Below are positions 24,087 to 25,902 of a stretch of 64,000 bases of DNA, piece after piece. Source of the DNA: an uncultured Allomuricauda sp. (GTDB lineage Bacteria > Bacteroidota > Bacteroidia > Flavobacteriales > Flavobacteriaceae); contig NZ_CAMYIC010000003.1 in the NCBI RefSeq assembly GCF_947258355.1, forward strand, positions 1-64,000, written 5' to 3'. Below the pieces are notes generated by a model. That model made no database searches and was not told the DNA's origin. It saw only the letters and a list, made by a program, of their open reading frames with translations. Position 1 is the stretch's first letter, and every line of letters begins with the position of its first letter. The translations under genes were made by a program, and so were the position numbers.

Positions 24087-24281
24087 ATGCTTAAAATTAA
24101 ATTGGTTCCTGGTGAGAACATTGAAAGAGCTTTAAAAAGATATAGAAATAAAGTTCGAAACACTAAACAATTGAAAAACATTAGGAGCAATCAAGAGTTT
24201 ACCAAAAAATCCAAAGAAAAAAGGGAGCTTCTTGCAAAGGCTGTCTATAAAAATGAGTACATGAAAAGGAACGAGGAGTAA
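24087..24281 (+). CDS. Ribosomal protein bS21, divergent copy
   Basis: A 64-aa basic protein of the S21 family: PGENIERALKRYRNKV near the N-terminus is the family signature, followed by a lysine-rich helix. The usual flavobacterial S21 (from memory) shares this signature but differs through the middle, so I read this as a second, specialised copy; the main one is not in the window. A tyrosine at position 54 is kept; in Flavobacterium johnsoniae a tyrosine of bS21 helps to hide the 16S anti-Shine-Dalgarno. It leads an operon with a NYN/LOTUS protein (4 nt later) and an RpoD-like sigma factor. No Shine-Dalgarno sequence precedes it. Confidence 0.88.
   Translation: MLKIKLVPGENIERALKRYRNKVRNTKQLKNIRSNQEFTKKSKEKRELLAKAVYKNEYMKRNEE
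24273..24278 (+). promoter_or_regulatory. Strong Shine-Dalgarno sequence before the NYN/LOTUS gene
   Basis: GAGGAG lies 7 nt before the ATG at 24286, spanning the last two Glu codons of the S21 gene. Bacteroidota genes rarely carry such sites because bS21, bS18 and bS6 mask the 16S anti-Shine-Dalgarno; about ten other starts inspected in this window lack one. It may make translation of this gene respond to S21 supply. It could also be chance, as it encodes Glu-Glu. Confidence 0.5.
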
Positions 24282-24285
24282 TTTT

Positions 24286-25020
24286 ATGGATAAAGATTTA
24301 AACCTTGCCGTCTTAATCGATGGCGATAATATTCCCTCCAAATATGTCAAAGAGATGTTGGAGGAGATTGCAAAGTATGGTAACCCCAGTATTAAAAGAA
24401 TCTACGGGGATTGGACCAAACCAAGTTTGGTGAAATGGAAAGATGTTCTTCTTAAAAATGCCATTACCCCAGTTCAACAATATGGGTACACCACAGGCAA
24501 AAACTCCACGGATAGTGCCATGATCATAGATGCTATGGACATCCTCTATTCTGGAAAGGTAAATGGTTTTGCCTTGGTATCCAGTGATAGTGACTTTACA
24601 AGACTGGCCATTCGCCTAAGGGAAGCTGGAATGACAGTATTTGGTATTGGGGAAAGAAAGACACCTGACCCTTTTATTGTTTCCTGCGATAAATTTATTT
24701 ATCTAGAAATACTGCATAAACCGCAATTAGGAGAATCCAACACTCCCCAAAAGAACGATAAGAATAAGATCGACAAAATAACCCCTAAGGTAATTGACCT
24801 GATTCTTACCACCATTGCCGACGTGGAAGATGAAGAAGGCTGGGCATTCTTGGGCGAAGTTGGTACGCTGCTCCAAAAAAAGCACCCCAATTTTGATTCA
24901 AGGAATTATGGGTTCCGAAAATTAACACCTATGGTCAAGTCCTTAGATCAAATAGAGATAGGTTCCAGAAAAAATCCCAAGGGTAATGGAAACCTCATAT
25001 ATGTAAGGACAAAGACCTAA
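24286..25020 (+). CDS. NYN-domain ribonuclease-like protein with a C-terminal LOTUS/OST-HTH domain
   Basis: A 244-aa cytoplasmic protein. The NYN (PIN-like) nuclease fold covers about 5-145 with conserved acidic residues D12 (LIDGDN), D76 (STDSAM) and D101/D103 (SSDSDF), enough for a metal site. A charged linker (about 145-165) leads to an OST-HTH/LOTUS domain (about 165-242, with FLGEVGTLLQKKHPNF), a fold that binds RNA, often G-rich or structured. It is thus a likely RNA-cutting or RNA-binding protein. It follows a divergent S21 gene by 4 nt with a rare strong Shine-Dalgarno, and precedes a divergent sigma factor by 15 nt, suggesting a role in a specialised expression programme. Confidence 0.9.
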   Translation: MDKDLNLAVLIDGDNIPSKYVKEMLEEIAKYGNPSIKRIYGDWTKPSLVKWKDVLLKNAITPVQQYGYTTGKNSTDSAMIIDAMDILYSGKVNGFALVSSDSDFTRLAIRLREAGMTVFGIGERKTPDPFIVSCDKFIYLEILHKPQLGESNTPQKNDKNKIDKITPKVIDLILTTIADVEDEEGWAFLGEVGTLLQKKHPNFDSRNYGFRKLTPMVKSLDQIEIGSRKNPKGNGNLIYVRTKT

Positions 25021-25035
25021 TGAAAAAGAAATACT

Positions 25036-25902
25036 ATGAGACCTCTATCCATATCAAAACAGATTACCAAAAGGGATACCCCTTCCCTTACCATATATCT
25101 TAGCGATATAAGCCGTATACCAATGATTACGGAACAAGAAGAGGTCGAATTAGCGATTCGAATCAGAGATGGAGATATTCCTGCACTGGAGAAATTAGTA
25201 TCCGCCAATTTGAGGTTTGTGGTCTCGGTAGCCAAACAATACCAGTCAAGAGGGATGAATCTTCACGACCTTATCAATGAGGGGAACCTTGGATTGGTCA
25301 AAGCTGCCACAAAATTTGATGAAACCCGCGGTTTTAAATTTATTTCCTATGCCGTTTGGTGGATTCGTCAAGGCATTATACAGGCGCTATCCGAAAAATC
25401 AAGAATGGTTCGGTTACCACTGAACAAAATAAACGTCATCAATAAAATCAACCAAGCTTCTTCCCATTTCGAACAAGTCAACCAAAGAACTCCCACAGCA
25501 GAAGAAATATCCGAATTAATAGATTCATCACTATCAGAGATTCGACTTTGTTTAAAACATTCTTCTTGGCCCATTTCCATGGATGAATCGTTAAAAGTTG
25601 GGGAGGAAGGTTTCAACTTGCACGATATCATGCACTCTGATGATACCATTGGTCCTGAGCAGAACTTACTCAAAGGTTCATTAAAATTGGAGCTAAATGA
25701 TATTTTGGAAATACTGAATTATCGTGAGGCGTATATCATTAAAATGTACTTTGGCATTGGCACCAACGATACTATGGGATTGGAACAAATTGCCCTTAAT
25801 TTGGACTTGACAACCGAAAGGGTAAGACAAATAAAGGTAAAAGCTTTGGCCCGATTGAGGAACTCGTCCAAAATTGAATGCCTCAAAGAGTATTTGGAAT
25901 GA
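25036..25902 (+). CDS. RpoD/SigA-family sigma factor, divergent copy
   Basis: A 288-aa sigma-70 factor with region 1.2 (about 15-45), region 2 with the -10-reading segment TRGFKFISYAVWWIRQ (98-112), region 3 (about 135-210) and region 4 (about 225-285, HTH with TTERVRQIKVKALARLR). The size equals the housekeeping sigma of flavobacteria, but many region 3 and 4 residues that are near-invariant there (from memory TRERVRQIKEKAIRRL) differ, so it is probably an accessory primary-like sigma with altered -33 contacts. No anti-sigma gene is adjacent. It closes the operon with divergent S21 and the NYN/LOTUS protein. Confidence 0.9.
   Translation: MRPLSISKQITKRDTPSLTIYLSDISRIPMITEQEEVELAIRIRDGDIPALEKLVSANLRFVVSVAKQYQSRGMNLHDLINEGNLGLVKAATKFDETRGFKFISYAVWWIRQGIIQALSEKSRMVRLPLNKINVINKINQASSHFEQVNQRTPTAEEISELIDSSLSEIRLCLKHSSWPISMDESLKVGEEGFNLHDIMHSDDTIGPEQNLLKGSLKLELNDILEILNYREAYIIKMYFGIGTNDTMGLEQIALNLDLTTERVRQIKVKALARLRNSSKIECLKEYLE

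Follow-up and report, generated by a model that had tools for sequence, protein, structure and literature searches.

A GAGGAG motif before an NYN/LOTUS gene in Allomuricauda looks to be explained mostly by the glutamate codons of a tightly packed bS21 paralog gene

Gene organization at the locus

The window, a stretch of 64,000 nucleotides from an uncultured Allomuricauda sp., contains three consecutive genes on the forward strand that form the cassette considered here. The first (24087..24281) encodes a bS21 paralog of 64 amino acids that ends in RNEE, is terminated by TAA and has no Shine-Dalgarno (SD)-like site before its own start. The protein was matched by PF01165 with 39.3 bits (cut-off 27) and scored below the cut-off of the NCBIfam S21p model (23.4 against 28.95); the genome holds three bS21 matches. 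The second gene (24286..25020) encodes a protein of 244 amino acids with an NYN domain (PF01936, 133.4 bits) and an OST-HTH/LOTUS domain (PF12872, 64.3 bits). Residues D12, D14, D76, D101 and D103, which are taken here to have a catalytic role, are invariant in eight aligned proteins, and the family to which the protein belongs marks it as a putative RNase. The third gene (25036..25902) encodes a sigma-70 family paralog of 288 amino acids, 57% and 56% identical to the products of the two other matching sigma genes in the genome. A reading of the cassette as a defence system was rejected: PADLOC matched neither the bS21 paralog nor the NYN protein, and its single match for the sigma factor was MzaA, a model of the sigma-70 family.

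The GAGGAG motif and codon usage

The final two sense codons of the bS21 paralog gene, both for Glu, form the SD-like motif GAGGAG (24273..24278, forward strand), which is followed by the stop codon TAA (24279-24281), by TTTT and by the ATG of the NYN/LOTUS gene at 24286. The spacing of 7 nt between the motif and this ATG had been given correctly in the initial annotation. The overlap with the S21 stop region that it also described is not there; the motif abuts the stop codon. The double GAG had been regarded as unusual in a genome that mostly uses GAA, and this was ruled out as a codon anomaly because GAG makes up 30.4% of the Glu codons (1486/4884) and GAGGAG encodes 39 of 413 Glu-Glu pairs (9.4%), which is the expectation from independent codon choice. 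An RNA hairpin at 24236-24345 was likewise rejected, the fold being not unusual (z -0.77). The NYN start fits poorly to the A-rich pattern of 390 sampled starts (16th percentile) and stands at the 4th percentile for this fit among 112 tight pairs, both values being partly circular in that the motif displaces A.

Pairing strength against the 16S tail

A search of the organism's own assembly for the 16S tail gave no match, and pairing was evaluated with the tail GGAACACCTCCTTTCT, which is present in two genomes of the same genus. Among the patterns used in the tail search, GGATCACCTCCTTT and GGATCACCTCCTTTCT were without a match and GGNNCACCTCCTTTCT was matched. The genus tail starts with AACACC; site energies were the same with a tail starting with AUCACC, and the number of starts in the organism's own genome at or below -6 kcal/mol was 6/197 with the former and 7/197 with the latter. 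Against GGAACACCTCCTTTCT, GAGGAG forms a helix of six pairs, including one G.U, with an energy of -6.5 kcal/mol (contiguous-helix nearest-neighbour sum). Duplex energies that allow internal loops run larger (-9.2 for GAGGAG) and were left out of the counts.

When the 52 ATG-start ORFs of the window with 100 amino acids or more are ranked by the anti-SD match before their starts, the motif comes first, so the earlier statement that none of about ten other starts has such a core holds. Across 244 kb of the organism's own genome, 5 of 197 starts have a site of -6.5 kcal/mol or better. At the threshold of -6 kcal/mol, sites were found before 6/197 starts and in 13/197 mock windows further upstream, which makes sites this strong less frequent before starts than at the more distant position; the counts were 5/193 and 9/193 in 220 kb of a relative (G005). 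The background genes in both genomes were longest ATG ORFs with a minimum length of 100 amino acids, so some of these starts are wrong. Sites of the strength of GAGGAG are uncommon and depleted before starts, yet not unique. Of the description as a rare, strong SD, the rarity is therefore sustained and the strength was overstated, at six pairs and -6.5 kcal/mol. Published reporters placed on the same energy scale bracket this value, with AGGA at -2.7 and AGGAGGU at -10.3 kcal/mol.

In Flavobacteriales, rpsU is to our knowledge the only SD gene that has been tested. The main rpsU of the genome (contig C19) has an extended site, AGAAAGGAGGU, which forms an 11-bp helix of -16.6 kcal/mol. An extended rpsU site is reported for many Flavobacteriales in the part of McNutt et al. 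(2023, PMC9976891) used here, with a helix below -13 kcal/mol. GAGGAG was rejected as a strong SD of this type: in place of a helix of 9-13 bp below -13 kcal/mol it offers six pairs and -6.5; it precedes the NYN/LOTUS gene and not the main bS21 gene, which has its own site; and in place of wide conservation in Flavobacteriales it has the distribution described below. The locus resembles the rpsU autoregulation of that account (PMC9976891) in having SD-type complementarity before a start in an SD-poor phylum, with a bS21 gene involved. It differs in that the complementarity precedes a nuclease gene, lies within the last codons of a bS21 paralog and is patchy among relatives. An SD in front of the bS21 paralog was rejected too, since among 42 paralogs L044 is the only one whose start has a site of at least this threshold of -6 kcal/mol.

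Conservation of the motif and of the gene pair

The genus sample consisted of 71 Flagellimonas/Muricauda genomes; judged by its named relatives, the genome of the window falls within this genus or close to it. An NYN match was present in 37 of them, with an S21 paralog directly before it in 33; G071 has the NYN gene without an adjoining S21 gene, and in G004, G034 and G086 the match covers the NYN C-terminal end only. Two genomes of the genus hold two copies of the S21-NYN pair. From 51 loci with the pair, nine with identical S21 and NYN were dropped and four pairs from outside the genus were added, repeats being left out, which gave a compared set of 46 pairs: 36 non-redundant genus operons and 10 from outside the genus (L126, L130, L132, L133, L134, L139, L204, L206, L207 and L210). 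L044, from a Croceivirga sp. MAG, was counted with the genus because its NYN protein is 90% identical.

A helix of -6 kcal/mol or better precedes the NYN start in 26 of the 36 genus operons. In some of them, where the C-terminus of S21 differs, the core is built from other codons: GAGGTG in L035, GGAGG in L018 and L039, AGGAGG in L021 and L044 (both -8.5 kcal/mol) and AAAGGAGG in L046 (-10.35 kcal/mol). No site of this strength was found in the near-identical sister L005, which has GAAGAG and an NYN protein 99-100% identical, in L013, L015 and L026, which have GAAGAA, in L017, L032 and L036, which have weaker cores, or in L019, L040 and L041, where the two genes overlap. Judged by eye, the losses are scattered over about seven places on the genus tree. 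Outside the genus, two of the ten pairs reach the threshold of -6 kcal/mol (L130, where the motif ends 3 nt before the ATG, and L207); both belong to the five whose S21 ends in Glu-Glu, and none of the five with other endings has one.

The initial annotation had expected the site to be kept even where the S21 C-terminus varies. This describes the 26 genus operons, some of which reach the threshold through other codons, and not the other 10 or the 8 of 10 outside pairs without a site. Relatives that lack the site, or that encode Glu-Glu with GAA, had been named as the sign of a coding coincidence, and they occur in part of the genus (L005 with GAAGAG; L013, L015 and L026 with GAAGAA; L019, L040 and L041 with overlapping genes and no site).

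The 4-nt gap between the stop codon and the NYN start (24282..24285) has equal length in 30 of the 36 genus operons, and the stop-to-start distance lies between -8 and +8 nt in all 46 pairs (four of the outside gaps were read by eye). Relatives thus keep the tight gene packing more faithfully than the motif.

Codon choice at the motif

Codon choice was compared over 19 Glu columns of the two genes in 33 genus loci. The penultimate Glu of the bS21 paralog is encoded by GAG in 29/33 loci, the highest share of the 19 columns, with four changes on the tree; the last Glu is GAG in 19/33 loci, tenth of the 19. A two-state codon model applied to one column at a time gave 2dlnL values, uncorrected for the number of columns, of 5.70 for the penultimate and 0.02 for the last Glu, and another of the 19 columns gave 5.61 in the opposite direction. 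Neutral codon drift was simulated along the tree with codon 62, the stop codon and the gap held as observed. Unconditioned simulations reached at least 26 loci with such a site at P 0.0007-0.038, and none of 2000 runs did so with the genome-wide GAG share. Because the window was chosen for carrying the motif, the simulation was also conditioned on its own site; P was then 0.02 with rates pooled over the two genes and 0.14-0.15 with rates from S21 only.

Probable coupling between the bS21 paralog and NYN/LOTUS genes

The two genes lie on the same strand with stop and start +4 nt apart, within the distance of about 10 nt that characterizes coupled pairs. In the parts of the published work used here, reinitiation measured in E. 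coli and Haloferax falls off sharply as the distance grows (PMC10666635), and a survey of 720 genomes reports that Bacteroidetes seem not to rely on SD sequences, either to initiate de novo or to reinitiate where genes overlap (PMC6728339). On these grounds the proposed coupling is attributed to distance. The locus is like the termination-reinitiation pairs of these accounts in that stop and start lie a few nucleotides apart on one strand, with an SD-like motif in the 3' end of the upstream gene; it is unlike them in that Bacteroidetes pairs are described there as largely without a motif and that overlaps of -4 or -1 nt are commonest, where the distance here is usually +4.

The best explanation, given that the distance is kept in 46/46 pairs, is that the motif is the Glu-Glu C-terminus of the bS21 paralog and that reinitiation at the NYN/LOTUS gene is coupled by the short distance; this reading is considered probable. 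The bS21 paralog gene is probably translationally coupled to the gene directly after it: ribosomes finishing the paralog at 24279-24281 would reinitiate at the ATG 4 nt on, with the short distance doing the coupling. GAGGAG would then arise from Glu codon choice and would act at most as a modest anchor for the post-termination 30S subunit. Consistent with this, the gene pair is kept in the 10/36 genus and 8/10 outside pairs without a site of -6 kcal/mol, the last Glu shows neither a high rank for GAG nor a model signal, and the RNA fold is unremarkable. Set against it are the frequency of sites in the genus (26/36 loci, against 6/197 sampled starts), the unconditioned P values, the 0/2000 runs with the genome-wide GAG share and the conditioned pooled P of 0.02, the purine cores made from differing codons in some lineages and the poor, partly circular fit of the NYN start to the A-rich pattern.

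An alternative is that the motif is a real, selected SD: by pairing with the 16S tail of ribosomes at termination, it would raise NYN reinitiation in the genus, with no special dependence on bS21. The 26/36 loci, the pooled conditioned P value and the cores built through other codons in L016, L018, L021, L035, L038, L039, L044 and L046 speak for such selection, while the scattered losses, which include that in L005, the P of 0.14-0.15 obtained with S21-only rates and the presence of the site in only 2/10 pairs outside the genus speak against it, and this alternative is considered unlikely. On balance GAGGAG is real, rare and well placed, of middling strength and patchy among relatives; it looks to owe most to the Glu codons of a tight and conserved gene pair, and to be at most a weak helper of translation.

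In the ribosomes of Bacteroidia, bS21 contributes to a pocket that conceals the anti-SD. The initial annotation had proposed that translation of the nuclease may depend on bS21, and in such a switch the anti-SD would be free on ribosomes that have little bS21 or that contain the paralog, and these would preferentially translate the nuclease gene. The position of a bS21 paralog gene directly 5' of the NYN gene fits this proposal, as does the report, in the part of PMC9976891 used here, that loss of bS21 in F. johnsoniae raises translation of strong-SD reporters; AGGAGGU responds in that system and AGGA does not. The sites of L021, L044 and L046 are in the range of the responsive reporter. GAGGAG itself, at -6.5 kcal/mol, is far weaker than the site of rpsU, at less than -13, and in the same part of that paper neither the AGGA reporter nor the weak-SD mRNA m291 differed in behaviour from those without an SD. 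The site is also not kept in L005, L013, L015 and L026 or in 8/10 outside pairs. Gating of nuclease translation by bS21 is accordingly possible but very improbable, and not the likeliest reading. Mutation of Tyr54 of F. johnsoniae bS21 is reported to have raised strong-SD reporters (PMC9976891, in the part used here); this residue is retained in the bS21 paralog of the window, and position 54 of the genus S21 paralogs is Tyr in 22/36 and His in 14/36. The paralogs with His54 are those of L007-L010, L012, L028-L035 and L176.

A second SD-gated gene beside a spare bS21 gene would, if real, offer a direct test of 'specialized ribosomes'; GAGGAG has neither the strength nor the consistency among relatives to be taken for such a case. 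Repeatedly, a spare bS21 gene has a sigma-70 paralog, an NYN/LOTUS gene or a cold-shock gene as its neighbour, and this is a better lead to the roles of bS21 paralogs. The cassette merits more attention than the motif.

Spread and origin of the cassette

No published description of a bS21-paralog/NYN/sigma cassette was found in the one open-access library searched. In the genus, a sigma homolog follows the pair in 35/36 loci (L021 ends at a contig edge). Outside the genus it follows in 6/10 (L126, L132, L134, L139, L207 and L210, the match in L210 being in two pieces), and it was not found within the about 0.75 to 5 kb searched downstream of the other four pairs. Sigma trees place the cassette sigmas of the genus together with those of the S21-sigma loci L199 and L200, and in a second tree also with L139; this group stands apart from the two other sigmas of the genome (support 0.98-0.99). 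The sigmas of the outside pairs L126, L207, L208 (=L132) and L209 (=L134) fall outside it. A single ancestral three-gene cassette was rejected, as the sigma tree does not unite the outside-genus cassette sigmas with those of the genus. Because these four do not join the genus group, the S21-NYN pair may have become associated with different sigma genes on more than one occasion. The L210 locus at least may have been inherited in place, since an mnmE homolog lies upstream both there, in another genus, and in the window.

The order of the genes recalls the macromolecular synthesis operon, rpsU-dnaG-rpoD, in which a bS21 gene is also first and an RpoD-type sigma gene last; the present genes differ in being paralogs, with the NYN/LOTUS gene in the place of the primase gene. 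Francisella tularensis has three bS21 paralogs with differing roles, as recounted in the part of PMC9976891 used here. The likeness is in the several bS21 genes per genome, and the difference is that the paralog in the window lies in an operon-like cluster with an NYN/LOTUS gene and a sigma-70 paralog. A broader and quite unlikely proposal is that the cassette is a switch, in which the bS21 paralog, the NYN/LOTUS RNase and the sigma-70 paralog would be made together (with a cold-shock gene upstream in some relatives) and would at once shift the choice of promoters, the make-up of ribosomes and the decay of mRNA. The GAGGAG-type site of Flagellimonas would then set the amount of nuclease relative to the bS21 paralog and would favour ribosomes with a free anti-SD, for example during bS21 exchange.

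bS21 paralogs across the family

The family sample comprised 397 genomes. Among the matches listed there were 30 S21 loci, three of them from the genus and some with flanks of only 1.5 kb. Of these 30 loci, 14 have a same-strand sigma homolog no more than 3 kb away, and 9 (L126, L184, L185, L186, L188, L189, L190, L208 and L213) have a cold-shock gene that precedes the bS21 paralog on its strand by about 0.3-0.4 kb; Pfam confirmed the cold-shock domain in six of the six such genes scanned. AGGAGG was absent from the S21 leaders of all 30 listed loci, the leaders being counted from the BLAST match and some therefore being a few codons off. NYN/LOTUS homologs were present in 181/397 family genomes, and by coordinates an S21 gene stands directly before one in at least 9/397.

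Other arrangements were also seen. A bS21 paralog gene and a sigma-70 homolog are direct neighbours, with no nuclease gene between them, in L199 (S21 then sigma) and in L201, L202 and L143 (sigma then S21), and L200 has the NYN gene upstream, followed by S21 and sigma. A partial nuclease match stands just before the sigma homolog in L178 and L213, which have both S21 and sigma genes, and in L025 and L179, where a sigma gene and no S21 was found; from the position of these partial matches, the nuclease seems to have been lost in the four loci while the sigma gene stayed. Another bS21 paralog gene of the organism's own genome (contig C62, L152:8616-9034) is followed by a gene for a 63-residue protein that starts with MRLSRIKRETRYEKRY and has no Pfam match, and small proteins like it also come after related paralogs in L143, L191 and L193.
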